Shown piece by piece: positions 6,001-20,892 of a stretch of DNA of 22,780 nt; within the stretch, counting starts at the first letter, position 1, and every line of letters starts with the position of its first letter. The position numbers and the translations under genes were made by a program. Below the pieces are notes generated by a model. It had not been told where the DNA came from and did not search any database. It saw only the letters and a program-made list of their open reading frames with translations. The stretch spans positions 1 through 22,780 of IMG/VR virus record IMGVR_UViG_3300007345_000302; one strand, given 5' to 3'. The DNA comes from a virus.

Positions 6001-6701
6001 GATGGTCTATCGTAATACTTATTAACTACTAATAGTTGCTCACTATTTCTTACAAAGAATCCATTTACAAAATAAATTCCTTCTTCTACCTTGACAGCAG
6101 AAGCAAAACCCATCGCTGGACTCAACTTTGTTGTAGTCTCACCAGTATCTGGATTTGTTATAGTAATAGAAGTAGGAAGAACGCTGCCATCTGTTCCTAC
6201 GACCAATAGAGGTGTATTTACACCATCAACTACTTCTAGAGTTTCTCCTTGTCTAAAAGTTGCTTCATCTGCAGCATCGCCACTATTTGTATAATTTACA
6301 AAAAGAGTATCTGCTTCTGAAGGATTTGAATATTCTGCTGTGACAATAGTAGCAACAACACCCGAGGTAATTCCCTGAACTTTTTGTCCTACTAATTGCT
6401 TGATATCATATTTCTGATACGTTATCTCGCCATTAACATTTACTGCCACTTCGGAAACTGATGACAGCTTTACGTAGTCTAGTCTATTATTAAGACCAAC
6501 CTCTCCAGGTACTACAAGCTCTCCCTGTTTGAATTGGAACTTTCCATAGCTCTCTATTTGATTTTGTAAAATAGATTGCAAGGAAGTGAGTTCCCTACTT
6601 TGGATAGAATATCCAGGTCTAAAAAGAACTCTATAGAAATTTTTAGACGGATCAAAATCGTCAAAGTAGGGATCTACATTGAGGTTAGTCTTCTGTGGCA
6701 T
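1..6701 (-). CDS. Giant DUF4815-type virion structural protein (C-terminus beyond window)
   Basis: An open frame runs from an ATG at 6701 to the left edge without a stop, giving 2233 complete codons. The N-terminus (MPQKTNLNVDPYFDDF, then RPGYSIQSRELTSLQ near residue 30) is what I recall of DUF4815 proteins of T4-like cyanophages. Further landmarks are a predicted coiled coil near residues 1355-1390 (MRDIGKLEKRIERLEHYT), a GVFATGVDLFF segment near 1790, GxGY-type motifs near 740, 1950 and 1990, and GSLYKSQNIDNWTEDLFED near 2100. These later segments also occur in long tail or baseplate-periphery proteins. It lies just downstream of gp8, where T4 has genes 9 and 10, so a role at the baseplate edge or in fibre attachment is inferred. 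The ribosome binding site is weak. Structural role: fairly sure; exact role: not known. Confidence 0.75.
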   Translation of the reverse strand, partial: MPQKTNLNVDPYFDDFDPSKNFYRVLFRPGYSIQSRELTSLQSILQNQIESYGKFQFKQGELVVPGEVGLNNRLDYVKLSSVSEVAVNVNGEITYQKYDIKQLVGQKVQGITSGVVATIVTAEYSNPSEADTLFVNYTNSGDAADEATFRQGETLEVVDGVNTPLLVVGTDGSVLPTSITITNPDTGETTTKLSPAMGFASAVKVEEGIYFVNGFFVRNSEQLLVVNKYYDRPSAKVGFRISESIAAAEDDNSLYDNARGFSNFASPGANRLKITLDLQKYGYTESTDNNFIQLLKIKSGVIEKKIKKADYTLIEDTLARRTFDESGDYVVQDFSIDIREYYQKDGNLGFYNLNRETNTVNDIPVVEAERKMVASVGPGKAYVRGYEIVNKETKFLEVDKARDTIERDNITIKGKGLVDFKISNVYGSVPLNADGAELTAYPNVFLYSTFNDSSIGLNSKASEGGYKNTISRRGEEYAYSSEGVTFSNEDIAIRTIYIEQRDTSFTFGDITNLNFETELGTLWFRKTEDTVDSFRSIAWSIVKRPEIDGTGTNDYLELTVYGRKDQLDAYLKEYNENDNLKETKIFRDRNQAISPTGQEFGIVRDYNNSFTPLVGVAKPKNFYFRDLPSGFNPNNDKVLSGSNFDDATFSLSYFNPVFFTKLTLDAPVTLNTFIAGKYIVGTKSGAYGVVEGSPNGFYSYGDTLFVKTLYGNFIPGETIFDEDNNVRRIANENTISHFVVTRRGSGYTQSATQISVDGVSYDASKISVGVDNTGALYKVTVANRNALLQTYANPPAVTAKLSSGDPTSEAEVIAVLFRNTVLTYSPENIKSFYSVFGSGNANRFTADAELSKEEYSFIDQVTSFTFSGTQGYKFLECNGFGDDGSNYVEQGDLIQFTDSTGVVNRSVVQYATKSLGTKKVRIYLDSALRNDVLNSSVVRVRPKQSNTTTSTLIFPTGSRQVKSLIKDVSDSKFKYYFRRDFVTTGSSSGGNLTFAAQLPFGTQRFVSYTKENYVFTVLNKGSSDVVNNGDIVYIDESYVNINTSTDSTSGLTSGSITLTLPSDFFGDIATGFPTLKLTATLEVSKAKPRLKTSIANKRIVITAAGDRVVPLRGYDYDTADTEVFTYSDVYKLRYIYEGGANPPVVDSDGVLISGNDITSRFTFDDGQRDTFYDVSRIVLKPGFDPPIGQLVVGFDYFDHSQGDFCTVDSYLHEAGVGEQEIPAFNSSVFGNVSLKNVIDFRPKVDSNSIVTGFQDTSILSQTNASSFAGPGGIASSTPAIDSNLEFTISFSETQYLDRIDGVFLTKKGEFAIKEGNSSLNPAKPETIDDSIPLYYIYVPAYTNTSKDVKIIPVDNRRYTMRDIGKLEKRIERLEHYTTLSILEQQALNMQVKDEIGLDRFKSGFIVDNFEYHKVGNLKSIDYECSIDTQQSVLRPQVKEDSISLREVFTTNDERSIYGYTNNNGIVTLPYTNLELVSNQFATKTINPNPFVVIQYAGDGELFPQVDTWYDSSIQPIVVNDNTGLFSIFSAKSNAEEAFSSIYNSSIINWIGTNRTFFNIDPLTQTDSEKSSANVDLALVSSSSNITPQNYELAQGVGKTTIGNKSVANSLQLFARSQDVKYVIRRMKPKTQVFVFMEGKDIGRWVVPDSRFTGIAGNSPSAFGRSVITDENGNASGIIIIPGGYPPVEGTPWTNDIQTVLYDTNTDQLRFPTGVKTIRFTSSSVNANKDEVDTYAEVKYYASGILPENPSSIISTRPSYFKANEGIQLADSNTDIEVKPNPLAQTFKIENYQGGVFATGVDLFFNKKSSTIPIRVYLTNVDLGKPSKNIVPGTESVLNPETKLKVFASGNLSVKQGELVNGAKSGASGPLEKIFDRSNIEVVPLSDGTYNLTNEQVYTFVLSNHNGKTFVQDEQVNTNSLTVYNNKNSTNLTLKIAKDSGKISELVIDSTGSNYEGAILTIESPQLPGGSTAAAVCKVSGGKIYATEITLSGSGYTENPSVVIRGVGSGAAGAVVKANIEINSPAVSMGVAVDDFTNFGTFNSVTPTNFKFKHPVYLQNNIQYALVVETDSTDYMMWASKLGDPDIATSVTVTTQPALGSLYKSQNIDNWTEDLFEDVKFTLYRAEFDISRTAELFLKNDPLGYERLSVDPFETSARSDSTATSTLFKNNNTILRVSHKNHGFEGGGKSYVFFDNARDVGGITSSVLNTNLFEVTNSGIDTYDIQAPNRAGSS

Positions 6702-6723
6702 TTTGTGATTCTATCTACTTTTT

Positions 6724-6731
6724 TATTGATA
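6724..6731 (-). promoter_or_regulatory. Possible degenerate late promoter for the DUF4815 gene
   Basis: On the minus strand the 42-base gap between gp8 and the DUF4815 gene contains TATCAATA, one mismatch from the T4 late promoter core TATAAATA. It is 22 bases before the ATG at 6701, similar to the distance of the exact late promoter in front of gp8. One mismatch in AT-rich DNA is weak evidence. Confidence 0.25.
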
Positions 6732-6743
6732 TAAGCAGGTTAA

Positions 6744-8570
6744 TCAGAACTCAATAACTAGTTTGATATCCTCAATCTGGTCGGCAGCTCTTGTGATTAA
6801 TCTTCTATTCTCTATGTATATGATATCTCCAGAATTATTATCAATTTCGGGCTGAGAAATGCCGCTAGCAAAGTTTCCAAAGAATGGAGAAATTGGATCA
6901 TTGTTTTCAGAAGCATTATATGAGGAATCAACAGTTCCTGATGCTAAAGAATCTTCTCCATCAACAGTAGCAGGACCATTTTCAAATGCTCTTACAACAC
7001 CATTATCTTTGTGATATCTTGGTGACTGGAAGATTTTTAGAATACCACTAAAACTTCCTGGAGCATCTGGAGTCCAAGAAACAACAGTTCCCTTTGCAAT
7101 TCCTCCAGTAACTGTTTGAGTTACAACTTCATCTGGGGTATAATCTGCTCCAGCACTATCAATCTTTAGTGCAGTCAATCCATTTAGAGTATCTGTTGTA
7201 GCATAAGTAGTAGTTCCATTTACGTATGGATCTTTGATAATACCAATTCTACGGAAGTCGTTGTCAACAGGGAAGTCACCAAAACCTTCTGCATAAGTAA
7301 GACGAATATTCGCCATTACTCTCTTGCCATTTAGTTCTAGTTCCATGTCACTACCATGACCACCTTGTGGAGGAATAATGACTTTGATCTTACCAGTTGC
7401 TCCAGCACCAACAGTAGCTGCACTAGTTAAAGCAGAATTTGTGAATAGTCCATATGCAGTTGCACCAGAACCCGTTCCTGTCTTGAGGAAAATTTCTCCA
7501 TAAGTATAATCTTGACCACGACCACCAACAGTTACAGATGTAACAGCGCCAGATGCAATAGTAATCGTAGCGTATGCGGCAGTACCATCACCAACAACAG
7601 GAGCATAGTAAGTTCCGTCAGCAGGAAGACCAGATCCAGCATCTTCAATCAAATATGCATCAATAGCACCTGGAACTGCTATACCTTCCGTTGCGATTCT
7701 AGTTGCATCTGTAGCAGATACAATTGGCATAAAGTCAGATGAAAGAAATCTTAGAACATCATCTGTTGGAATAGTATACATGTATTTCCAAGTATACGCT
7801 CCAAGAGTAAGCAACCCTGTAGCGCCAACATATCCAGGGTCTGTGGTTGTGGGTTCGTTAACTGATAATTGCCCATTTGGATTTGCTGGATTTGTTCCGT
7901 TATAAATGCACTTCCAAACTTCATACTGAGCATTCATTACATAGAACTTAGCATCAGCAATAGATGATTGACCAGTAGCAGTTAGATTGCCTGTTCTACC
8001 AGTTCCAGATGGAGCATAATCTGGTCTCCACATATCATATGTGGTATTCACTTGCCAATTATATCTTCTGATCACAGATCTTACATACTGATCCGTAATT
8101 CTCTTTGCTGCAATCAGATCATCATAGACTTCAAATTTTTCATCTTGATTATCTTCGGGAACTGTTGGAAACTCCTCAGTTCCATAACGATAGATGCCTG
8201 TTTTAGCAGTAGCTCCTGTGTCTGATCCACCCAAATATCCTTTTAGGGTTGAACCTGGAGTTGGTACGCTAGAAACTCCACTAGCACCATTAACATTATA
8301 AAGTAAAAGACTATCTGTATAAACTTCTCTGACCACTCCTTTGAAGGTAGATGAGAGATATGATGTTCCAACATATACTTCGTCACCTTCGTTAAAAGCA
8401 GTTGCGTTTTGACTATAGATTTCTAAATACGCATCCCATCTTTGTGGACGACCAACAAAGAAATACAATCTGCTTCTTTCATCGCTAGTATCACTACTAC
8501 CTTCACTGAAAGACTCTATGAATTGTTTCGCATTAAAAATTCTAAACTTATCTGAAATGATGGCAGGCAT
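6744..8570 (-). CDS. 8: Baseplate wedge protein gp8
   Basis: The product has 608 residues. T4 gp8 has about 334 and is a wedge component that bridges other wedge proteins. Segments match T4 gp8 as I remember it: YFFVGRPQRW at 36-45 (T4 FITFGRSEPW), AYTWKYMYTIP in the middle, DFRRIGIIKDP near 440, and the C-terminus IIYIENRRLITRAADQIED (T4 MIYMENRPPIIMAMDQTEE). The extra length includes a Gly/Thr/Ala-rich stretch around residues 305-400 with a GRGQDYTYGEIFL motif, and a second such motif near 470, so beta modules appear to be inserted into the gp8 fold. The start is supported by AAGAG about ten bases upstream and by a late promoter 29 bases upstream. It is the third conserved wedge gene in T4 order. 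Confidence 0.88.
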   Translation of the reverse strand: MPAIISDKFRIFNAKQFIESFSEGSSDTSDERSRLYFFVGRPQRWDAYLEIYSQNATAFNEGDEVYVGTSYLSSTFKGVVREVYTDSLLLYNVNGASGVSSVPTPGSTLKGYLGGSDTGATAKTGIYRYGTEEFPTVPEDNQDEKFEVYDDLIAAKRITDQYVRSVIRRYNWQVNTTYDMWRPDYAPSGTGRTGNLTATGQSSIADAKFYVMNAQYEVWKCIYNGTNPANPNGQLSVNEPTTTDPGYVGATGLLTLGAYTWKYMYTIPTDDVLRFLSSDFMPIVSATDATRIATEGIAVPGAIDAYLIEDAGSGLPADGTYYAPVVGDGTAAYATITIASGAVTSVTVGGRGQDYTYGEIFLKTGTGSGATAYGLFTNSALTSAATVGAGATGKIKVIIPPQGGHGSDMELELNGKRVMANIRLTYAEGFGDFPVDNDFRRIGIIKDPYVNGTTTYATTDTLNGLTALKIDSAGADYTPDEVVTQTVTGGIAKGTVVSWTPDAPGSFSGILKIFQSPRYHKDNGVVRAFENGPATVDGEDSLASGTVDSSYNASENNDPISPFFGNFASGISQPEIDNNSGDIIYIENRRLITRAADQIEDIKLVIEF

Positions 8571-8598
8571 TTATAAGACTCTTTTACAATTTCTGATT

Positions 8599-8606
8599 TA
8601 TTTATA
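8599..8606 (-). promoter_or_regulatory. T4-type late promoter upstream of gp8
   Basis: The minus strand reads TTATAAATAA, containing the exact T4 late promoter octamer TATAAATA. T4 late transcription uses the phage sigma gp55 with the sliding clamp and needs only this -10-type element. Initiation would be expected near 8590, giving a leader of about 20 bases before the gp8 ATG at 8570. It lies in the 46-base gap between the giant gene and gp8, one of the few non-coding gaps in the cluster. Confidence 0.75.
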
Positions 8607-8626
8607 ACGTTTGAATTCAGAACGTT
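8606..8626. repeat. Inverted repeat across the stop codon of the giant wedge gene
   Basis: The arms AACGTT (8606-8611 and 8621-8626) flank the palindrome TGAATTCA (8612-8619), with one unpaired base at 8620. The TGA stop of the 3360-residue gene (8617-8619) lies inside. It abuts the late promoter at 8599-8606. There is no T-tract, so it is not a typical factor-independent terminator. It could be an RNA hairpin at the 3' end of the upstream message or a protein-binding palindrome. Confidence 0.45.
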
Positions 8627-11600
8627 CTGATATAATCACCTGCAGAATGATTCTGCTCTATAGTTCCATTAAGAGCTCTGGTTATTCCCAATAAACGATC
8701 GGATAGTTTGGATGTATATGAGATTATTTCATCGCCAACTAGCAGTTCTCCTTCAGATGGGAAAGCAGAAGTGTCCGTATAAAGAACAGTATCTCCAATA
8801 TTAAAATCAAATCCTTGAGTGATCATAGATCCAAAATTATTGATAGATGGATATCCAGAAATATATTTACGAGACTTGGATGGTGAAACTTTGAGAGTAT
8901 CTGGATTATCAAAATCTTCAATTGTCAATTCTGGATATAATGCGGAGTATTCTTCAATTGTAACTTCCGAGACATTTGAATATCCATAATCAATAAACTT
9001 GAATGATTCTAATGTAACAAGTCTATTTCCTAGAATATTTTGCGTATAGAAATCATTAGGATATGTACCATCATACAACTTATCAACTGCACCAACAAAA
9101 GTACTTTGTTTTGATACAGTCTTGTTATGAATGGAAGTTACTATGCTAACATCAGATTCTATTATGGATTCTATAGATTTTTCAATACTTACAATAGAAT
9201 CTTCTATTACTGATGGTTCTATTATTATAATTTTATTTGTTGTTGACGTAGAACTAATACTTACTACATCTTGTACTTGTACTATTTCGGTAATTTGTCT
9301 TTCTACCGTAGTATCTCGACCAAACCCCAACGTAGCTTCCGAAGTAATAGTATTAATACCCTCTGTATCAGTACCGCTAACTGAAGTAAAAACAATTAGA
9401 TCATCTACTTCAATTCTTGGACTAATGCTAAAGAAAGTAATATAATCAATCTTTCTATTTTCTTTTACTCTCTTATATCTTCTGGAAACTACAACCTTAG
9501 GAGCTTCTGTGTAACCAGATCCTGGATTTGTGATGATTATATCAACTACGCTCTTATTGACTACCAATACCTCAGCCTGTGCTCCCCCTCCATTTTCATT
9601 TACTGGGATGAAATTCAATATTGGTGGAGTATAATAACCAGTAGCAGTTTCTTTATCTTTGATATCGTTATCAACAAATAATTGTATATCTCTCTTATTC
9701 CAATCAAGAGAAACTACTGAACCATTTTCAATATTTGCTGTAACTCCAAGACCAGTTCCATAAGTAAACCCATTATAATTCGTTGCACCAACCTTACCAT
9801 AAATTTGATTAGACACTTCTTTTTCGTGTCTAAAATCTTTTAGATGGACAAATTCTGGAATTCTTGTAATCTTTCTGTAATTAGATTCGCCATCAATTTT
9901 TACAGTATCATTAACTTGCAAGTTTGATAAAGATTTTGTTCTAAATGCTTCATCTCGTACTAACTTTCTAAGATCATTATCACCTCGGAAATACGTATAT
10001 TCTATAGAAAGATCTTGAGTTCTTGTAAACAAGAACAGATCTGGATTATCTAATCTACCATTAGGTGAAATTATATAAGTACCATTTGGATCTAAATCAA
10101 CGACGTTATTACCCAACAACGTAACATCAAAATAATTGACAAAATCATCAATTCTTATAATTTTACCAATACTAGAAATATTTCCAGTATCAGAATTTTG
10201 CTCAAAAAGATATGCTCCATTTCTAGAAGAAACGATTGGGTAATTGTCAGGGAATAAAGAATTAAAGAAAGATTTTATATTCAATAAAGTAGTCTTATCT
10301 TGACTACTATCAGAAATTCTCAAAGATATTCTATTGTAGTAAGTATCTGGTTCAAAGTTATAGAAAGTAAGTTCTTTCTCTAGATCTCTTCCATACAGAA
10401 CTAAAATATCAACTCTCTGTAAAACCTCTGTTCCATCTGGTAAAGTAAAAGATCTTAGTGGTTCTGTAAAGGTTATCGTGTTTCCATTAATATTATACGA
10501 ACTTTGATCTCTTTGTAAAACTCCATCTATAAACACATAAGCGTATTTGCTATCATCAATACCTCTGATAGATCTAGTCTCCCTATCAAACATTAGGAAT
10601 GGACCTGTTTTCTTGATAGAAATTCTTTCGTTGTTTATAGTTAGAGTTTCATAACTTCCAACTCTAACTACAAAAGTTTTATCTACCGCAATTGGTTCTT
10701 GTACGGTTATTGTATTTTCTTCTTGTGCCCATATTGGTGGCGAAGAGAATGAAACTGTATCGGAAGTATTTTGATCTTCTGACCTAATGATATCGTATGT
10801 TCCTGGTAATTGTAGAACACCATTTACAAAGACTAGTAAGTCTTCAGTCTCGTTAGTTTTTACAATAGATCCATCTTCATAGAAGAGTTCAAAATCAGTA
10901 TTTTCTCCATCAATATAATCTGGATTTGTTTTTTGTACAGCACCTACACCTGAAGTAAGAACAGTTTCAATACCAGAATATAGAGATACTAGTGAAGACT
11001 CAACATCAGAGCATTCTTCATCTAGAAGTAATGGATCTGGTATAATGTTATAGTTTGAATATGTTCTTAGATTTGTCCAGTTGCCCCTTCTCTGATTGTT
11101 TTCTGGTTCGGGTTGAATAAGGTTGATACCCTGTAAAAGGAGAGTTTCAATTATTCCAGAGTATGCATTCAAAGCTGACTCTACCTGGAAACATTTTGGT
11201 AGAATATCATTTGAATCGTCAAAAATATTTGAATCATAGAAAGGAACTGCGGATGTATATGTACCTGCAGGTAGTTCTCCTCTCATAGAAAGAACCATCA
11301 AACCAATAGCATATTGGAAAGCGTCTACAGATTCTGTGAGTTCATTATTGATAAACTTAACGTTATTACCATCGTAATATGCTTTTGCGAAATCAATTAT
11401 CTCTTGCGTCCCACCATATCTTAGAGAATACACTATTGCATCTACTAGATATCCAGTATCTCTCTTGCACTTGGTTTCATCTGGGATTATTAGAGCAGGA
11501 TACTCATTTTTTACCCATCCTAGAGTCTCTTCTTGGATATATGTTTTATTTCTTTCAATAAGGTTAGAAGCATCATAGAAAGTTCCGCTGTTTATCTTAC

Positions 11601-14600
11601 TGAAAGAGAATGTTGCTTGTGGAATTGACTGAATAGAATCAACCGAAGTTAGCGTAACTGCTCCAACAGGAACAGGATCAACGCCAACATTCAAATCTCC
11701 AGCGTTCAAAACACCAGCATAAGTTTCATCTTGTGTTATGGTAACGGTTTCTGTTGGACCAACAATCAAAGCACTAAGTCCAGCTCCAGATCTAGCAGCA
11801 TTTGATAGTCTTACTTGAGTATCATTAATAATTTCCGATACAACAGTTCCTTCTGGTAGTTGTGTACCACTACTGACATTCATTCCAACTACAATTCCAA
11901 ATGTAGATGGAACTGTTACTATGTCAGATGCAGAAGTAAATACAGCATTAGTTACTGTATAATCCCAGTTTCTGGCAGCAGCAGAGCACAATTTTGCTGT
12001 ATATTTGAACGCATCTAAGGTCTCTGTAAGTTCTTCGTTGATATGATCTAATACATTTCCAGTATAATAAGACTCTGCAGAGAAGATTGATTTGAAGTTT
12101 CCGCCAAATCTTAAATCATGTTCATATGCATCAATAACAAATCTAATATCTCTAATACACTTAGATCTGTAGATATTCCATGGAACATTTGGATACTTAT
12201 CAATTACATATCCAATAGATTCTTCTGCAATAAAATCTTTATTGAATCTAACTTGATTTGCTGCATCCAACCATCTTCCATTTCTCTGGAAGAAGTTTCT
12301 AGCTTTTCTAAGATACTGCTGATTTAGAGTATCTGACTTGAATCTGAAAGACTTGCAATAGAAAGATTGTGCTGGTATTGTTTGACCTTCTGAGACACGA
12401 GTGCCTAATGGAGCATCTGCAAATGTAATGCTAGACCCAGAAACTGTATATGCTATACCAGGCTCTTGAATAACACCATCAATCGTAATCAATAATTGTT
12501 CTTCATTATATGGTGCAATTGCAAGACCAGTTGATTTATCAATCAAACTGAAAGTTTTTGTACCAACAACCTTTCCAGTATCTGGATCATATTCTCCATC
12601 AAAAGCAGTACCCAATATAATTTCTGTTGAATAAGTCTCAGCATTACTTTGATTATCAACAGAAACTGATCCCAATCCATACTCTTCATTAAGATTGTTG
12701 AGACTTACAAAAGATTGCTTCAAGGTTCTCTTTGTGGAGAGATTCAAAACACTCTTTGGTTCTAGGTTAATAATAGTAAAATTGCTTGACGATGTATTTC
12801 TTACTCTGCTCTCTCCAAAAGATTCTACTATTACTTCACCGAATAGTTTAAATCCAGCTGGGTGAGTAGTCTCTTTGATGAGATTTCTCCATACTTCAAT
12901 TGGAGTTTTTGATTTTATGACATATGAAAAGTCTTGGTAGAAGAATGAGTCTGTTATTCTTTGTGAATTTGCACTCAGTTTACCTTTATCAGAAGTATAA
13001 GAACCAATATTATCATAATAAGATCTGATATTTGGAGTAAATTTAGAAGTAGCAACATCAACAATCTTCGCTGTATTGCCCTTGGCAGATCCTTTGATAG
13101 TAAATCCTCTTATGAATTCACCAGTTACATTCACAAGTTTTAGAATGTTGCTTCCATTTTTCCATCCATTTTTAGATACACGACCAGTTGCATAAACAAT
13201 ACCATTACTTTCTGCTACTACTCTTTCTCCAAATGAAAATGCATTTTCAGGAAAATCCTTTAGTAGAAGTATGATGCTTGAAGAATAATCTCTAAGAATG
13301 GTGTGGTCATTTGTAAACAAGAATCCGCTGTTCTCTACCTTTATTCTCTCTGGCAAACCAATATTCTTTGATTGTAAATAAACTTTGGTTGAAGATTCTA
13401 CTACTTTTACGGTTGGTTTTTCTGTATAGTTTACTCCTCCATTCTTAAGATCCGCAGAAATAACTACACCATCTTTGACAAAAAGATCTATCTGTGCTTT
13501 TGATCCATTGCCAGTAATAACCGCTTTTGCATTCACATAATTAGAACCACCATCAGCAACAGAAACTGCGGTAATTTTATTACCTATAGGATCATATGAA
13601 AGGTCTAAAGTAGCTTCATATGATGCAGTTGGTCTAACACCAATAACGGAAGGGATTGAATCATAGTCTCTACCAACATTATCAATCTTGATAGAATTTA
13701 TTTTTCCGATCGCAGAGGGATTTGAAGTGGTATATTTGATCTCTCCAGAACCATCGTATTGTGGTGCTATAGAATAATCATACGCAAATCCCGTATCAGT
13801 AATGAATATTACTTTCTTTTGTCCCTGTAAAGGATCTTGAGTAATGTTGAAAAATCCTTCATTAACGTCTACGTCATTATTTTTGTCAAAGAAATAGTAT
13901 CTTGTGTACTCCACTTTTTGTGAAGCAGAGTCTATAAGTCCAAAATTATCAATAACAGAATCGTTGTTTAGCGTTGTCCCATAGAAGTATATAAAATCTT
14001 CTCCTGGTTTTAGTTTAATGAAAGATCCAGAATTGCCAGGATCTACACTTGATCTAAAACTATCTACTGCAATAATATTTCTATTGTTACTTGGAGAGAA
14101 CTCTAAGTAAGTATTTGCCATAGAAAAATGACTTGTATCAAACTTATACAAATATTTTCTTTGTAGATCTAGATTCTGAAGAATGCTAAAGGTAGCATTA
14201 TCTTTTGAGTACTCAAATCTATTAGAAATTCTAATCAGTTTATTTACTTTGACTCTTTTAGCTGGGACACTATTGTCAACAAATAGAGAATTTGTTTGAA
14301 CTTGATTTACATTAGAAACGCCATAGTTATATGATAGAGTCAGAGTTTGTGTTTCTCTTTCGTAAGATACTACAAATGGATCTTCTTGATTTGCTCCATT
14401 CAATTGAGAACCAATCGTAAATCTATATTCAGGAAGTGCAAAACCAATATTTGTGCCATTAAAATGATCTGTTGCATTAGTATTGTTTTGACCTCTCAAA
14501 ACAACTAATTTATTAGTCTGACTATCTACAGAAACAACTTTTACTATTTCTGCTCCAATTTGAATCAAATCATCGGCAGATACCTCTCTTACATCTGCAA

Positions 14601-17600
14601 CAAATAAATCCGCATTTGATCTTGAGAATCCAACATGATCTACAATAGCAAGATAATCTCTGCTATTTGGTACTGTGCCCTTATCTAAGTCAGAATCTTT
14701 GAATGATACGGTATCGCCTCTTCTATAATCTTTTCCTTTGGATGTTATTGTTACGGATGTTACAACACCTGGATTGAAAACAACTGATGAAACAACGCCA
14801 GTAATTGGGAAATCTACATCTAGATTAGTTAATGTAACTACATTTGTCGTAGTATCAACAGATAGAACAGTAGTTCCATCTGCGATATTTTCTCCACGAA
14901 TATTAGTCCCAACAAAAATATCAGATGCATCATCAATAGTTATTGTATTGATAGCTTCATTATAAGCACTTACTACTTTTGTATTACCAACAACTACAGT
15001 TGCTCTTGCGTTATTTTGACCATCTTCATTACCAATAACAGAGTCCGAAGAAACACCAACTGTTTGACCTACTGAATTTCTTGATAACTCTGGATTTGAG
15101 AATAAAACTTCAACATCGGTAAATGTAGATCCACCAAAAGTAGATGCTGCATAATCAATTCCACTAACTAAAGTATCAATTCTTCCAATACCAGTATCTT
15201 TTATACTAGAATCATACTTTGGAGTTTCTAGTTGGACAGTTTGATACTTTTTCTTTCTTACATAATAAGTAGTTTCTGTTACTAGGTCATCAGGAGTTAC
15301 TTCAATATCTACCAGATCATCTATGTCTAGATTATGATTATCTGTAGTTCTTACTAGTGCAATATTCTCTTTCTTGGAGAATAATTCAATATTTTCACTT
15401 AGTGATATGATAGAAATAATTCTAGATCCAGGAGTGTCAGATCCTACGCTACTAGAAATAATATAGTCTTCATCAATAATAAATGATCCAGATAATACTT
15501 TTACTTTTACCGAGTTTTGATCGTTTACTGATTCTAATACTTCACCAGTTGCAATAATAGTATCAATTCCATCAAAAAGACTTATTACAGCACCTTTCGT
15601 AAATTCAGATTGTTTATCTACAATAACATTCAATACATTTGTATTAGAGGATACTCTATCGGTAAGATTAAAATTACCAGTAACTGTTCTCAATAATACT
15701 TGATCTGTGCTAAACGAATTACCATATATTTCACCAGTAGCACCAGTATTTTCTTGAGTGATTGTGTCACCTTCAAAGAAATAAATTTGAGATTTTGTCT
15801 TTAATTGTACAACTTTATTTTGTACACTTTCAATCGCTTCTACATTTCTTCCAAAAACTTTACTTACGGAGGCTGCGGCACCTTCTCCACCACCTGTAGT
15901 AGATAATGCTAATTGAGACCCAACTGAGAATGTTTCTGGTGAATCTTCAACTAATGCTGATGATATAGAACCCTTGGTGATTGATTGAATTGTTGCTTGA
16001 GAACCATAACCATTAGCACTAATGTTGTTGGCATTCAATCTCTTGCTATTTGTTGGAATATCATTTTGTGAGATTGAGAAATCATAATTAGAACTTATAG
16101 GAAGAGAATAAAAATTCTTTCCTATAATAAATGGGAAGGTTGGAGCATTTGAAGAATTAGTTGAAATGAAGTATGCATAAGTTCCTTCTGGATAATCTGG
16201 AGTTACACAAAATCTTCCATTATTCTTATCTAAACGAGTTTTTCCTGTTTCCTGAGTCTGAGACCAAGTATAGTCATCAATAAAGGTTCCTAATGGGTAC
16301 TGAGATACAGAAGGTCCATTAGGTCTTGAACTATTCAAAGTATAACCAGATTCTAATCTGGCAATAGAAGATGATGGATCTCCAGGTTCGGAATATCCAA
16401 ATGGTCCATATATTGGATTGCCATCATATGCATATCCAAGTATTTTTGAATGAGTTTTTGTAGATGGTTCTTGATATAAACTATTGAGGTTATCTCCAAC
16501 TAATGCTCTAAGCTTTAATGGATTTGCTACAATACCATATTGCTTTTTGTTGAAGAAGTTGAAAACATAACCATTTGCTGTGTCAAGTGAAGACTGGTTC
16601 TTTTTGTATCTATTTTTTATCCACTTTTTGATTTCTGCACTTGCAGTAGCACCTGAACCCTGTGGAACAACAGTAACTTCTACAGTACTTGCTCCATATA
16701 GTCTTCCTGTGCTTATCTGAGTAAAATCAACAATCTGACCATCTTTAGAAACTATAGCTTCATATTCTGCAAATCTTCCTTTGCCATTTGTATCAGTAAT
16801 AACAATAGAAGGAGGACTTGAATAATATTCTCCTGGATTTTCTATTACTAAGCTTGTAATTTGACCACGAGTAACTACTGCCTTCACTACGGCATTTCTT
16901 CCAGAAGTTATTGTAATTTGTGGATTTTCTGTGTAAATTTCGTTATTTGTAATAGTAATGGAACCTACAGTCTCTCCTAAAAGTGAGGACTCTGCTTTTC
17001 CAGGAACATTATTGATAAGAACAAATGGAGGATTTACATATCCGTTACCTTTTGAAGTAACATTTGTTTTTACAATATTTCCATAACTTACAAAGTCTTC
17101 ATCCTTATAACCAAATGCTAGTGTACCATCAACAAAAACACCAACATCATTTGCTGGAGTCTCGTATATCTCGGTAGTTTCAATTGGGGATTTTCTGATT
17201 ACCTTTAGATTCTTTGGATCTTCTAAAGTTGCAGATACTGAAGACGACAATATATCATATGATGGATATCCAGATGAACAAATATAGTAGTATTGATCGT
17301 CTTCATATATTGCAGAAACTTCTGCAATAAATTTATTTACTTGAGATTGTAGTGCTGGATTTGTTTGAATGACTGGTGAAGAGTTGTCATCATTAATTTT
17401 CCATCTCAGAGCTCCTGATACTGGATCTGTGATGATACGATCCCTCGTAGTAAATCCAGACTCAGTTTTTTCAATCTTATCACCTACTGATGAATATGGT
17501 AGATTTAGAGTCTTTTGTAAATCATAAAGAACACCAAACACCATAATTTCAGTATTTCCAGATACTACTGGAGAATAATCATATATTTCTTTACCTGCTG

Positions 17601-18699
17601 TATATGAAATAGATGATGTTCTGGACTTGATGTAAAATTGCTTTGCGTTTTTCTGATCGTAGAAAAATCTTTCTGATCCAATTACAAATGATCCTGTCTT
17701 ACCCCACCCTAAAGTAGATTCTACTGTAACTCTATCTCCCTCTGTTGCAGTTGCAGAAATAGGATTTTCTAATTTTGTTCTAGTAGATACTCTAAAGTTA
17801 CCATTAACAGTAGATGGATTTAATATAATTTGATATAATTGCTCGCCGTCTTCTCCACCAATATTCCTTACATTATCTACAATAGCAGATGCATATCCAA
17901 ATGTAGGATCATTCTGAATAATTTGGTTACCAATAAGATCATTAACATCACCAGAAACCAACTTCACTTTGAGTGAATACGAAGTTTCCCAATCGGAAGT
18001 TGATGCCTTTAGTGTAAAATCTTTTGGATTGTATGTAGTAGGAACATTTTCAATATCCCTAGCAACAATAGAATTGAAAATAAAGCGAATAGAACTCTCT
18101 GTTCCCTTTGCTTTGTAGAACTTCTGAATGTTTTTAATCAGAGTTCTCTTGTCTACATCACTCTTTAGATATTTTTCTGGGAATGATGCAAGATACTGCG
18201 ACTCAAAGTTTCTTACAAATGCATATAAAAACAGATTGCTGATATTATATACAGTATCACCAACAGAATGTGGTTCTGCAATAGTGGATTGAAAACTAGA
18301 AGAATTGTATAGATCTCCTAATGTAGTATTGCCACTTACTCCTCTAGAGCACTCCAACAACTGAGTGTCATTTCTAGTTGCATAAAAAATAATTTCTTCG
18401 CCAATTCTTACATATCCATTCTTCTCTGGAAATGAAGAAGCATCATTTAGAGTAATAGTCTTATCTGATGAAGTAACAGAAGAAGCTAGAGAATCATTTT
18501 GCTTAAGAATATTTTTCTCATAAAAATCTATATCCAAATATTTTTGGATATTATTGATCACATCTAAAGTACCACCTTGTACTTCTTGTGACTCGTAGTA
18601 TTTTTCAACAAACTTCCCAAAAAGTTCATACTCTGTAGAGATGAACTCGGGTAGTTGAGATTCAATAAGAGTAGAAATTCTCTTGGTCTTTACGTTCAT
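8617..18699 (-). CDS. Giant baseplate wedge protein in gp7 position (3360 aa)
   Basis: This frame has 3360 residues and lies between gp6 and gp8, where T4 has gp7 (about 1032 residues), so a wedge role is inferred from position. Residues 1-60 (MNVKTKRISTLIESQLPEFI, then FVEKYYES) and 160-215 (LIKNIQKFYKAKGTESSIRF) look like the conserved N-terminal region of cyanophage gp7-position proteins. The rest is a mosaic: an IGEE-type beta module at 81-152, again near 315-363 and 1367-1420, and as the last 57 residues; a YHYH-like domain at about 753-864; GxGY motifs throughout; two copies of a helical domain at about 2137-2245 and 2370-2475; and three DGVLQ-type segments near 2063, 2620 and 2721. The ATG is 4 bases after the gp6 stop, with AAAGAG upstream. 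No internal stop is present. Confidence 0.8.
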   Translation of the reverse strand: MNVKTKRISTLIESQLPEFISTEYELFGKFVEKYYESQEVQGGTLDVINNIQKYLDIDFYEKNILKQNDSLASSVTSSDKTITLNDASSFPEKNGYVRIGEEIIFYATRNDTQLLECSRGVSGNTTLGDLYNSSSFQSTIAEPHSVGDTVYNISNLFLYAFVRNFESQYLASFPEKYLKSDVDKRTLIKNIQKFYKAKGTESSIRFIFNSIVARDIENVPTTYNPKDFTLKASTSDWETSYSLKVKLVSGDVNDLIGNQIIQNDPTFGYASAIVDNVRNIGGEDGEQLYQIILNPSTVNGNFRVSTRTKLENPISATATEGDRVTVESTLGWGKTGSFVIGSERFFYDQKNAKQFYIKSRTSSISYTAGKEIYDYSPVVSGNTEIMVFGVLYDLQKTLNLPYSSVGDKIEKTESGFTTRDRIITDPVSGALRWKINDDNSSPVIQTNPALQSQVNKFIAEVSAIYEDDQYYYICSSGYPSYDILSSSVSATLEDPKNLKVIRKSPIETTEIYETPANDVGVFVDGTLAFGYKDEDFVSYGNIVKTNVTSKGNGYVNPPFVLINNVPGKAESSLLGETVGSITITNNEIYTENPQITITSGRNAVVKAVVTRGQITSLVIENPGEYYSSPPSIVITDTNGKGRFAEYEAIVSKDGQIVDFTQISTGRLYGASTVEVTVVPQGSGATASAEIKKWIKNRYKKNQSSLDTANGYVFNFFNKKQYGIVANPLKLRALVGDNLNSLYQEPSTKTHSKILGYAYDGNPIYGPFGYSEPGDPSSSIARLESGYTLNSSRPNGPSVSQYPLGTFIDDYTWSQTQETGKTRLDKNNGRFCVTPDYPEGTYAYFISTNSSNAPTFPFIIGKNFYSLPISSNYDFSISQNDIPTNSKRLNANNISANGYGSQATIQSITKGSISSALVEDSPETFSVGSQLALSTTGGGEGAAASVSKVFGRNVEAIESVQNKVVQLKTKSQIYFFEGDTITQENTGATGEIYGNSFSTDQVLLRTVTGNFNLTDRVSSNTNVLNVIVDKQSEFTKGAVISLFDGIDTIIATGEVLESVNDQNSVKVKVLSGSFIIDEDYIISSSVGSDTPGSRIISIISLSENIELFSKKENIALVRTTDNHNLDIDDLVDIEVTPDDLVTETTYYVRKKKYQTVQLETPKYDSSIKDTGIGRIDTLVSGIDYAASTFGGSTFTDVEVLFSNPELSRNSVGQTVGVSSDSVIGNEDGQNNARATVVVGNTKVVSAYNEAINTITIDDASDIFVGTNIRGENIADGTTVLSVDTTTNVVTLTNLDVDFPITGVVSSVVFNPGVVTSVTITSKGKDYRRGDTVSFKDSDLDKGTVPNSRDYLAIVDHVGFSRSNADLFVADVREVSADDLIQIGAEIVKVVSVDSQTNKLVVLRGQNNTNATDHFNGTNIGFALPEYRFTIGSQLNGANQEDPFVVSYERETQTLTLSYNYGVSNVNQVQTNSLFVDNSVPAKRVKVNKLIRISNRFEYSKDNATFSILQNLDLQRKYLYKFDTSHFSMANTYLEFSPSNNRNIIAVDSFRSSVDPGNSGSFIKLKPGEDFIYFYGTTLNNDSVIDNFGLIDSASQKVEYTRYYFFDKNNDVDVNEGFFNITQDPLQGQKKVIFITDTGFAYDYSIAPQYDGSGEIKYTTSNPSAIGKINSIKIDNVGRDYDSIPSVIGVRPTASYEATLDLSYDPIGNKITAVSVADGGSNYVNAKAVITGNGSKAQIDLFVKDGVVISADLKNGGVNYTEKPTVKVVESSTKVYLQSKNIGLPERIKVENSGFLFTNDHTILRDYSSSIILLLKDFPENAFSFGERVVAESNGIVYATGRVSKNGWKNGSNILKLVNVTGEFIRGFTIKGSAKGNTAKIVDVATSKFTPNIRSYYDNIGSYTSDKGKLSANSQRITDSFFYQDFSYVIKSKTPIEVWRNLIKETTHPAGFKLFGEVIVESFGESRVRNTSSSNFTIINLEPKSVLNLSTKRTLKQSFVSLNNLNEEYGLGSVSVDNQSNAETYSTEIILGTAFDGEYDPDTGKVVGTKTFSLIDKSTGLAIAPYNEEQLLITIDGVIQEPGIAYTVSGSSITFADAPLGTRVSEGQTIPAQSFYCKSFRFKSDTLNQQYLRKARNFFQRNGRWLDAANQVRFNKDFIAEESIGYVIDKYPNVPWNIYRSKCIRDIRFVIDAYEHDLRFGGNFKSIFSAESYYTGNVLDHINEELTETLDAFKYTAKLCSAAARNWDYTVTNAVFTSASDIVTVPSTFGIVVGMNVSSGTQLPEGTVVSEIINDTQVRLSNAARSGAGLSALIVGPTETVTITQDETYAGVLNAGDLNVGVDPVPVGAVTLTSVDSIQSIPQATFSFSKINSGTFYDASNLIERNKTYIQEETLGWVKNEYPALIIPDETKCKRDTGYLVDAIVYSLRYGGTQEIIDFAKAYYDGNNVKFINNELTESVDAFQYAIGLMVLSMRGELPAGTYTSAVPFYDSNIFDDSNDILPKCFQVESALNAYSGIIETLLLQGINLIQPEPENNQRRGNWTNLRTYSNYNIIPDPLLLDEECSDVESSLVSLYSGIETVLTSGVGAVQKTNPDYIDGENTDFELFYEDGSIVKTNETEDLLVFVNGVLQLPGTYDIIRSEDQNTSDTVSFSSPPIWAQEENTITVQEPIAVDKTFVVRVGSYETLTINNERISIKKTGPFLMFDRETRSIRGIDDSKYAYVFIDGVLQRDQSSYNINGNTITFTEPLRSFTLPDGTEVLQRVDILVLYGRDLEKELTFYNFEPDTYYNRISLRISDSSQDKTTLLNIKSFFNSLFPDNYPIVSSRNGAYLFEQNSDTGNISSIGKIIRIDDFVNYFDVTLLGNNVVDLDPNGTYIISPNGRLDNPDLFLFTRTQDLSIEYTYFRGDNDLRKLVRDEAFRTKSLSNLQVNDTVKIDGESNYRKITRIPEFVHLKDFRHEKEVSNQIYGKVGATNYNGFTYGTGLGVTANIENGSVVSLDWNKRDIQLFVDNDIKDKETATGYYTPPILNFIPVNENGGGAQAEVLVVNKSVVDIIITNPGSGYTEAPKVVVSRRYKRVKENRKIDYITFFSISPRIEVDDLIVFTSVSGTDTEGINTITSEATLGFGRDTTVERQITEIVQVQDVVSISSTSTTNKIIIIEPSVIEDSIVSIEKSIESIIESDVSIVTSIHNKTVSKQSTFVGAVDKLYDGTYPNDFYTQNILGNRLVTLESFKFIDYGYSNVSEVTIEEYSALYPELTIEDFDNPDTLKVSPSKSRKYISGYPSINNFGSMITQGFDFNIGDTVLYTDTSAFPSEGELLVGDEIISYTSKLSDRLLGITRALNGTIEQNHSAGDYIRTF
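11272..12290 (-). repeat. Duplicated helical domain inside the giant wedge protein
   Basis: Two copies of a domain of about 105-109 residues lie about 125 residues apart. Copy one is at 11963-12290 and copy two at 11272-11588. Shared landmarks in order are WLDAAN / FYDASN, EESIGYVIDKYP / EETLGWVKNEYP, CIRD / CKRD, VDAI-or-IDAY followed by LRFGGN / LRYGGT, SYYTGNV / AYYDGNNV, and NEELTETLDAFKYT / NNELTESVDAFQYA. Two shorter segments downstream, CFQVESALNAYSGIIETLL and CSDVESSLVSLYSGIETVL, look like a further degenerate pair. Function is unknown. Similar units recur, as I recall, in other cyanophage structural proteins. Confidence 0.7.
16108..16442 (-). other. YHYH-like domain within the giant wedge protein
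   Basis: Residues about 753-864 contain ILGYAYDGNPIYGPFGY, then GRFCVTPDYPEGTYAYF, then FPFIIGKNFY. This order matches the YHYH domain family (PF14240), in which the middle motif is usually TYHYH. Here the two histidines are replaced (TYAYF), so any metal or ligand binding that depends on them is probably lost and the domain may be purely structural. The family assignment is from memory of the motif pattern. Confidence 0.6.
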
Positions 18700-18703
18700 C
18701 TAA

Positions 18704-20500
18704 TTACTCTTTGTAAGCAACGAAACTTGAATTTGCAACATCAACATCAAGGTAAACTTCACGAAGTGCCTTGATATCATTAGATAGTGGTTTTACTCTT
18801 ACTGAAATTCTATTGTCTGTAAAGCTGCCTTTAATAATAGTCAAATTGTATAATTTTACTTCACCTTTTGCGTAATCAATATCACCAATTTCTTTGTTCA
18901 GAACAACTTTTTCACCAGTTAGAGGGTCTAGTCTATATAGGACAATTTTGCCATCCCTGTCTTCTAAATACACATCAAAATTGGGATACTCAGTAACTCT
19001 AAATGCAGTTGTAGAAAGGACTGGATCATCGCAATCTACATCAAATGCATTCTGGAAACATACTTCATAATAGAAGGTTGAATTCAACTGAGGGAAGAAA
19101 TCTTTCCTCATAGTTACAGATGTAAGATTAGATGTGATGCTACGATCTGCATTATCAATAACACCTACTACTTTACTATACCTAAACTTACCGTTGAACT
19201 TCTCAACACTAGATGTATTCAAATAATCCTGAACTGCTCCAATTGCTTTGTCTCTAATTTGAGCAGGAGTCTGATCTGTGATTGACGTGTCATAGAAAAT
19301 CTTGCTACTCAGTTCAACATAGAGAATAGATGGATCTAAAATCTCTGGTTGAATAGAAGCAACAACAAATTTCTTCAATTCTGCAATAATTTCATTCTTT
19401 GTAATAGATGTAAGGAATGCAGCATTTGTTGGTTTTAGTACAACAAAGACTTTACCATAACTTGGAGGATCTTGCTCCTCTCCTCCAAAGATAATGATAT
19501 CACTTACTGCTGGATATACATTACGTACAATTGCATCATAATCACTTGCAGTCACAGCACGATTCTGCGTACCATAAGTTTTTGGTGCATTAAACTTGAT
19601 CTTACTGATGGATTCCATCTCCTCACCACCAGAAGATGCAATAGTGGAATTGATCGTTACATCAAATGAATTTGGTGATACACCATCAGGATTCTCTAAT
19701 ACACCAGAGAATACAAATGTCTTTACTCCATTTGTCTCTGGTCCTGCAGTAGTAATATAAGAAACTTCTACTCTTGCTCCATTATCTAATTTCTTACCAA
19801 TAACACCATCACCAAACAGAATCTCATATCTCTCATCATCAATCTCATCTAAGAAAAAGATCTTTGATAATCCATCTACTCCTAAGATGTTATCAGATAC
19901 CAAATATTCTTCGTTGAATGATCCACCAGTAGGAAATACCTTTACTCTAATCGTATTTGTATCAATATTCTGGTTATCTAGAATAAATCTCTGTGATTTT
20001 AATGCAGTATTGATTACAAATGTATTTGTGATCTGTGTTCCCTCTCTAATGGGAACATCTGTAAATACTGCAGTCTGATTTACAACTTGTGCCTTTACAT
20101 CATCTAATACAACATATTGATAGATGTTATTATCAAACGAGGCAATAAATCCCGTTCCTTTCTTCAATAATAACTCAGTATCAGTTGTTGGATTTGTATA
20201 ATTTACAGTAAACGAAATATAAGCAGTAGGTGAAGTGATACTCTTCGGTCTGTATCCTAATTGCTTCGCTAATGCTACTACGTTGTCTCGTAAGGTGGCA
20301 GAATCTATGAATAGTTCATTCACCACCATGTTGGTGTTAAATGCCGTATAATACGTGTTATAGGCAAGAGTATCAATCAACACAGATAGTGCTGATCCTT
20401 CAAAGTCATAATCAGTAAAATCTGATTGTGCTCTAAGATAATCCTTTAGAGCATCTTTTATATCTTCAAAATCTAAGTTTGCAACCTGAGTATATGGCAT
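18704..20500 (-). CDS. 6: Baseplate wedge protein gp6 (J-like)
   Basis: The product has 598 residues; T4 gp6 has 660. In T4, gp6 forms the inner ring that joins the wedges of the baseplate and is related to the gpJ proteins of P2-type phages. The N-terminal region fits this family: FEGSALSVLIDTLAYNTYY at about 34-52, then VVNELFIDSATLRDNVVALA and LGYRPKS. The middle carries FGDGVIGKKLDNGARVEVSY and, further on, TASDYDAIVRNVYPAVSDI, which is typical of J-like baseplate proteins. Its ATG overlaps the gp25 stop codon by one base (TAATG), which implies coupled translation, and the giant gp7-position gene starts 4 bases after its own stop. Confidence 0.9.
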   Translation of the reverse strand: MPYTQVANLDFEDIKDALKDYLRAQSDFTDYDFEGSALSVLIDTLAYNTYYTAFNTNMVVNELFIDSATLRDNVVALAKQLGYRPKSITSPTAYISFTVNYTNPTTDTELLLKKGTGFIASFDNNIYQYVVLDDVKAQVVNQTAVFTDVPIREGTQITNTFVINTALKSQRFILDNQNIDTNTIRVKVFPTGGSFNEEYLVSDNILGVDGLSKIFFLDEIDDERYEILFGDGVIGKKLDNGARVEVSYITTAGPETNGVKTFVFSGVLENPDGVSPNSFDVTINSTIASSGGEEMESISKIKFNAPKTYGTQNRAVTASDYDAIVRNVYPAVSDIIIFGGEEQDPPSYGKVFVVLKPTNAAFLTSITKNEIIAELKKFVVASIQPEILDPSILYVELSSKIFYDTSITDQTPAQIRDKAIGAVQDYLNTSSVEKFNGKFRYSKVVGVIDNADRSITSNLTSVTMRKDFFPQLNSTFYYEVCFQNAFDVDCDDPVLSTTAFRVTEYPNFDVYLEDRDGKIVLYRLDPLTGEKVVLNKEIGDIDYAKGEVKLYNLTIIKGSFTDNRISVRVKPLSNDIKALREVYLDVDVANSSFVAYKE

Positions 20501-20892
20501 TATCGTGTACGCTCTAAGAAGAATTCTACTGCTATTGGTGCATCATCTCTTCCAATAATAGTATATGTCAATTCAACTTCATACCCATTATTCATTTCAT
20601 CTGGTGTACATCTGATCGAATCTACATCAATTCGTGGTTCATAACGATTCAATACATCACGAATCTCAGATCTGATGATACCAGCACTACCAAAATCTAA
20701 TGGTTCAAATAATATATTCTGAATACCACATCCCAACTCTGGTTGAAATGGTCTTTCACCCTTTCTTGTAAGAAGCAATCCTGTTATTGCCTGAACAATA
20801 GCAGCTTTATCTTTTACAGTTACTAGATCATTCGTAACAGGATGCTTCTTAAATGTAACACTCAAATCCTTGAATGTCTGAAAGGTTGACAT
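20500..20892 (-). CDS. 25: Baseplate wedge protein gp25
   Basis: The product has 130 residues; T4 gp25 has 132. The GPW/gp25 family (PF04965) includes TssE of type VI secretion and is thought to nucleate sheath assembly on the baseplate. The sequence shows LLLTRKGERPFQPELGCG at about 39-56 and RYEPRID at 83-89, the family's conserved EPR core, aligned with T4 TTRKGSRPFDPEFGCD and NYEPRID as I recall them. The last bases overlap the gp6 start (TAATG). There is no clear Shine-Dalgarno sequence before the ATG at 20892. A near-consensus late promoter lies 25-32 bases upstream, so this gene probably opens the wedge operon gp25, gp6, gp7-position. Confidence 0.95.
   Translation of the reverse strand: MSTFQTFKDLSVTFKKHPVTNDLVTVKDKAAIVQAITGLLLTRKGERPFQPELGCGIQNILFEPLDFGSAGIIRSEIRDVLNRYEPRIDVDSIRCTPDEMNNGYEVELTYTIIGRDDAPIAVEFFLERTR

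Follow-up and report, generated by a model that had tools for sequence, protein, structure and literature searches.

The frame between gp6 and gp8 and its gp7 core

The viral record IMGVR_UViG_3300007345_000302, analyzed here over its 22,780 nucleotides (the window), harbors a giant frame between the genes of the baseplate wedge proteins gp6 and gp8. The frame, its gp7 core, the homology of two of its C-terminal domains to phycobiliproteins and the conservation of bilin-site residues in these domains were all computed here. The genes of the locus and the main parts of the frame are as follows.

20500..20892, minus strand: gp25 baseplate wedge protein (PF04965)
18704..20500, minus strand: gp6 baseplate wedge protein (Pfam Gp6 domains)
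8617..18699, minus strand: giant gp7-position baseplate wedge protein of 3360 amino acids (aa), an open frame with PHROG 4406 as the best family match (3215 bits)
17764..18684, minus strand: gp7 N-core, residues 6–312, common to compact homologs (phmmer of Melnitz gp7 against the window, E 7e-17)
13366..17763, minus strand: insert, residues 313–1778, with repeated GxGY beta modules (bounds from comparison with compact homologs)
16153..16626, minus strand: YHYH domain (PF14240), residues 692–849, inside the insert (Pfam E 2.2e-26, 93.5 bits against a cut-off of 25)
12787..13365, minus strand: gp7 C-core, residues 1779–1971, including the THPAGFKLFGEV motif at the PF23786 end (phmmer E 8e-21)
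6744..8570, minus strand: gp8 baseplate wedge protein (PF09215, Phage-Gp8)

The gene order gp25-gp6-gp7-gp8 is that of the T4 gp7 baseplate wedge family, T4 gp7 occupying the same slot between gp6 and gp8. Compact gp7-position proteins were found in marine relatives infecting heterotrophs, namely, Methylophilales phage Melnitz (896 aa) and Pelagibacter phage HTVC008M (1016 aa). The Melnitz protein matched the window protein in the N-core and the C-core, in agreement with HTVC008M, and the C-core also matched PF23786 at an E of 2e-5, under the family cut-off. Core homology to T4 gp7 runs via these compact proteins, whose family profile gave one match in the PDB, a T4-type gp7, at an E of only 0.096 (residues 193–219 on 733–759). 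The AlphaFold2 (AF2) model of compact gp7 was poor overall, with a predicted local distance difference test (pLDDT) score of 51, and its confident part was used for the structure search. Three gp7 chains topped the resulting list (Z 9.1, 9.0, and 8.8), the next rows being unrelated (Z 8.5 and 6.8), and model residues 230–319 paired with T4 gp7 760–840 over 80 residues. The gp7 identity is well supported because the sequence (733–759) and structure (760–840) registers adjoin, and the window protein is almost certainly a true gp7 relative.

The match to T4 gp7 is confined to the C-terminal part of the latter. The window protein adds the insert, the YHYH domain and the phycobiliprotein-like pair and is 3.3 times longer than T4 gp7 (1032 aa). 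The insert measures ∼1470 aa vs. ∼200 aa in Melnitz, and the C-terminal extension ∼1390 aa vs. ∼210 aa. Beta modules of the GxGYxxxPxVxI type are present in about 6–11 copies, together with two helical repeats. The initial annotation, made from the sequence alone, had described an uninterrupted frame of 3360 residues, about three times the size of T4 gp7, in which a gp7-type wedge protein had accreted repeated beta modules and helical repeats; the orthologs, the compact homologs and the T4 gp7 matches bear out this description. It had also proposed that ∼215 N-terminal residues are conserved. Such a block exists, extending to residue ∼312, and a second one (residues 1779–1971), evident from the comparison with compact gp7, had been overlooked.

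About forty closed related frames of 3360–3790 aa, near-identical or orthologous and uninterrupted, were found in other contigs. The isolates S-CAM4 (3494 aa) and S-WAM2 (3446 aa) carry direct orthologs in the same place, likewise uninterrupted and with the same two helical domains. These frames rule out a fusion of two genes by assembly, the objection that the initial annotation had itself raised. Large size as a novelty was also rejected. The gp7-position proteins of the relatives looked at span 896 to 6619 aa (S-CREM2, 1937; ACG-2014f, 4225; P-HM1, 4446; P-SSM2, 5195; P-RSM4, 6603; and S-SZBM1, 6619 aa), the 5195-aa protein of P-SSM2 is already annotated as gp7, and frames with the phycobiliprotein-like domain reach 7312 aa in other phages. 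Giant size is the norm for the gp7 position in cyanophages and no peculiarity of the window. The cyanophage gp7 or baseplate wedge initiator proteins (P-SSM2, P-HM1, S-SZBM1, and S-CAM4) share gene order and core with the window protein but differ in module content: gp7 of P-SSM2 and of ACG-2014f is without the phycobiliprotein-like pair, and the cysteine of domain 1 is lost in S-CAM4-type gp7.

The next gene downstream of gp8 (3–6701) is another giant frame of more than 2233 aa, which runs off the window and occupies the place of VrlC or virulence-associated structural proteins in relatives. In S-B43 (14120–27527), the gp7 frame splits inside domain 1 into a part of 2162 aa and one of 1392 aa, the second lying on the opposite strand and beginning with the same segment again. 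This looks like an inversion of gp25-gp6-gp7N, either a real rearrangement or an assembly artefact.

Phycobiliprotein-like domains of the extension

The C-terminal extension contains the following units.

11896..12306, minus strand: phycobiliprotein-like domain 1, residues 2132–2268 (profile and Pfam searches)
11134..11613, minus strand: phycobiliprotein-like domain 2, residues 2363–2522, with the whole globin-like fold including helix H (AF2 model; VIA-align Z 15–16, 1.7–2.1 Å over 128–137 residues)
10954..11013, minus strand: second helix-H-like unit CSDVESSLVSLYSGIETVLT, residues 2563–2582 (helix-H score matrix)

By sequence, the two helical repeats span residues 2132–2268 and 2363–2500 and carry YRSKCIRDIRF and DETKCKRDTGY, respectively. 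Residues 2124–2188 matched Pfam Phycobilisome (PF00502) at an E of 2e-4 with 21.6 bits; because this is under the curated cut-off of 22.2 bits, the domains are referred to as phycobiliprotein-like and not as family members. In the PDB, the single window sequence matched phycoerythrin alpha chains alone, and weakly. With an E limit of 5, a profile built from 29 diverse phage repeats retrieved 137 PDB sequences, of which the best 60 were all phycobiliproteins (best E 3.8e-8), one of them an engineered fluorescent protein of the family. The alignment covered helices A, B, and E and the C-x-R-D motif. Ten of the 29 repeats individually matched PF00502 (best 2e-6), and no other family had more than one match. 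Alignment by hhalign with 33 cyanobacterial phycobiliproteins gave 96% (E 3e-9); the highest value among 20 column-shuffled controls was 1.4%. Over four whole cyanobacterial genomes, the profile selected phycobiliprotein-sized frames (167–207 aa) and, in one genome, also a frame of 1229 aa. This last frame matches the phage domain over its full length and better than do the phycobiliproteins of the same record, and it possibly belongs to a phage contig.

A template-free AF2 model of residues 2105–2560, built with 34 orthologs, had a pLDDT of 71 overall and of 80–93 in most domain helices. Domain 2 was placed on phycocyanin beta 34–172 with a VIA-align Z of 15.6 and 1.7 Å over 128 residues, a score to be read knowing that chance alone can give helical folds a Z of 13, that the AlphaFold training structures include phycobiliproteins and that independent evidence from sequence covers just the first half of the domain. 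All 50 entries listed by VIA-align were phycobiliproteins, as were the best 20 rows of a Foldseek search, where the E was weak (0.03) and the query held several domains. Chance resemblance of an unrelated helical repeat to phycobiliproteins, helped by AlphaFold memory, would be in keeping with the single-sequence Pfam score just below the cut-off and with the middling model confidence. Every line of testing (sequence profile, profile-profile, whole-genome, and structure) yielded phycobiliproteins, which makes such convergence extremely improbable. Both profile homology and the globin-like fold were found, and we are confident that the two extension domains are homologous to phycobiliproteins, either descended from them or sharing a common ancestor with them. 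They have the same helices A, B, and E by sequence, the whole globin-like fold by model, the K-C-x-R-D motif and a cysteine at the beta-153/155 site. They differ from phycobiliproteins in being embedded in a 3360-aa baseplate protein, in the unmatched N-terminal X/Y helices, in an identity of only ∼15% and in a longer loop before helix H.

Conservation of the bilin-site residues

The residues of interest at the putative bilin sites are listed below.

12148..12162, minus strand: K2180-C2181-x-R2183-D2184, Cys-84-type bilin-site motif of domain 1 (repeat alignments)
11458..11472, minus strand: K2410-C2411-K-R2413-D2414, Cys-84-type bilin-site motif of domain 2 (repeat alignments, profile match)
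11191..11193, minus strand: Cys2503 at the start of helix H, at the beta-Cys153/155 bilin-site position by structural register; invariant in 34 aligned orthologs
11986..11988, minus strand: Cys2238, second cysteine of domain 1, +57 from C2181 (cysteine spacing)

A Cys-84-type cysteine together with Arg and Asp is present in both window domains. Among 86 copies of less than 80% identity, the cysteine occurred in 58, and these had R in 56, D in 58, and a preceding K/R in 50. The 27 Cys-less copies of the same set retained the rest of the domain with R in only 1, K/R in 2, and D in 15, figures that derive mostly from domain 1 of S-CAM4-type gp7 and thus from few independent losses, the R position then varying freely. 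In 71 copies of less than 70% identity, with distant ones added, the cysteine was accompanied by D in 53/53 and by R in 42/53. Six of the nine cysteines of the window gp7 lie at 2115–2563, 14% of its length (binomial P 5e-4).

Cys2503 opens the last helix, PKCFQVESALNAY. The aligned part of the model ends on a residue paired with phycocyanin beta 172, and Cys2503, which precedes this residue by 19, is placed at position 153, the same count giving 158 of the 177-residue phycoerythrin beta; both positions are counted from alignment ranges, assuming an ungapped last helix. This register rests on the structural alignment because the hhalign alignment of the extended repeats stopped short of the second half of the fold. 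Position 153/158 of beta subunits is the second bilin site. With a helix-H matrix from 16 beta subunits, the Cys2503 offset ranked best of 435 when averaged over orthologs, and second best without the Cys column; for the window sequence alone, it ranked 12th of 3341 offsets, and 167th without that column. With moderate confidence, the model suggests that the second cysteine of domain 2 matches the beta-type second bilin cysteine. The +57 spacing of Cys2238 is that of alpha-phycoerythrin Cys82/Cys139, to which the two cysteines of domain 1 may correspond.

Distribution, bilin genes and possible pigmentation of the virion

When 50,697 phage records were searched twice with tblastn, 332 and 361 of them contained the repeat; these were Synechococcus or Prochlorococcus phages or named cyanophages save one called only “Marine” virus. 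A conserved pair of domains was seen per gp7, up to 18 domain matches occurred per genome, and copies form tandem arrays in giant tail proteins. Tail proteins of more than 4000–5500 aa bear 14 to 16 domain matches, several of them shortened, with a C-x-D-V helix in place of helices A and B. No phycobiliprotein-like domain was detected in the compact-gp7 phages of heterotrophs. The restriction to phages of cyanobacteria and the fold match would also suit a phycobiliprotein mimic that carries no pigment and binds host antenna or linker proteins as a docking site or decoy. Phycobilisomes lie inside the cell, whereas baseplates act outside it, and the domain is also present in phages isolated on Prochlorococcus, a host lacking phycobilisomes; mimicry is hence very unlikely.

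The initial annotation presumed that the gp7-position protein is part of the virion, and for relatives, this is supported by published mass spectrometry: S-SZBM1_208 (6619 aa) was detected in purified virions with 71 peptides (PMC9146016) and S-CREM2 gp122 in the virion proteome with 91 peptides (PMC10665884). S-SZBM1_208 contains at least six domain copies, including VKCKRDIGH and NKCRRDIGY, and the S-SZBM1 genome has CpeT. CpeT belongs to the T-type lyase family including CpcT, which attaches bilin at Cys-155 of beta subunits (PMC2327270; T-type lyases, PMC10452541). In S-PM2, the CpeT gene is present 1.5 kilobases upstream of a giant frame (S-PM2p218) with several domain copies. Many transfer RNA genes are annotated inside S-PM2p218 (3824–15053 in the stretch of S-PM2 analyzed), on the same strand. 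The domain occurred in 22 of 28 complete genomes, and CpeT in 16/22 with the domain and 0/6 without it (Fisher 0.0025; 0.014 for cyanophages only), values that overstate independence given the common ancestry of the 28 genomes and the choice of many of them for a domain match. CpeS-type lyases did not track the domain in the genomes compared.

Taken as a whole, the best explanation, to which we give an even chance, is a T4-type wedge core with a beta-module insert and an extension whose phycobiliprotein-like pair carries bilin. The gp7 core (6–312 and 1779–1971) would build the wedge, with insert and extension peripheral on the baseplate by analogy with T4 and the extension presenting the pair. 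Inside the infected cell, bilin supplied by the host or made by phage HO/PebS/PcyA would be joined by thioether bonds to the K-C-x-R-D cysteines and the helix-H cysteine, phage CpeT being the likely loader of the latter, and the finished baseplate would keep the pigmented domains on its wedges. That a bilin is covalently held in the virion is a possibility just short of even. More tentatively, cyanophage virions may bear covalent bilins on baseplate and tail protein domains, loaded by phage CpeT. The initial annotation had instead read the added modules as peripheral host-binding or fibre-like adhesins, which would be compatible with pigment carriage. Module accretion is real, and the tandem arrays in giant tail proteins could be taken in the same sense. 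Nevertheless, YHYH is the only Pfam domain above cut-off in the window protein, no receptor-binding or fibre fold was identified there, and the helical repeats are phycobiliprotein-like; nothing supports an adhesive nature of the modules, and we consider this account unlikely.

Several observations, besides the shared ancestry of the genomes compared, weigh against pigment carriage. A bilin on any of these proteins is at present a prediction, and by sequence alone, the alignment is confined to helices A, B, and E, the first half of the domain. S-B43, ACG-2014f, S-SSM4, S-SKS1, Sf-CH5, and S-T4 have the domain with no CpeT detected, while P-SSM2 with a bilin reductase and S-CREM2 with a CpeS-type lyase (cpcV) have no detectable domain. 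Eleven of the 53 Cys copies of the wider family are without Arg, mostly as C-x-D-D and C-x-T-D, and another Cys was found within −70..+130 in 48/53 copies with the first Cys vs. 5/18 without it, making a disulfide possible. The cysteine pairs, the Arg-less copies and the action of tail proteins outside the cell would all be expected if the fold had been captured and amplified as a pigment-free structural or interaction module, its Cys, Arg, and Asp serving the fold or disulfides between helices or neighbouring domains. This is a real possibility, which we place clearly below even. Against it, beta subunits have two separate bilin sites, widely spaced in the fold, and each coincides with one of the two cysteines of domain 2; a second Cys is altogether missing from some copies (four loci, one in domain 1). 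The loss of K and R from Cys-less copies that keep the rest of the domain also fits a ligand site better than a need of the fold.

If the domains are pigmented, the bilin may serve stability, light-dependent adsorption or photoprotection. Adsorption of S-PM2, which has 13 domain matches, is reportedly light-dependent; P-SSM2 has none. P-HM2 fails to adsorb in darkness (PMC7112961); its gp7 has two KCxRD domains, and another of its proteins at least three further matches. Light-dependent adsorption could thus be one use of the pigment, the correlation being confined to these few phages.

The gp7 protein and its size are already known, pigmented virions being the larger proposal, and no report of phycobiliprotein-like domains in phage virion proteins was found in the open-licence literature. 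If true, this would be, to our knowledge, the first antenna-protein fold recognized in a virus particle. The purpose of the bilin-synthesis and lyase genes of cyanophages “remains a mystery” (PMC3037559). An acceptor in the virion would, if true, give phage cpeT, ho1, pebS, and pcyA a direct target. The puzzle is sharpest in Prochlorococcus phages, whose host is without phycobilisomes. Pigmented baseplates would then also be a candidate for light sensing before adsorption in some cyanophages.

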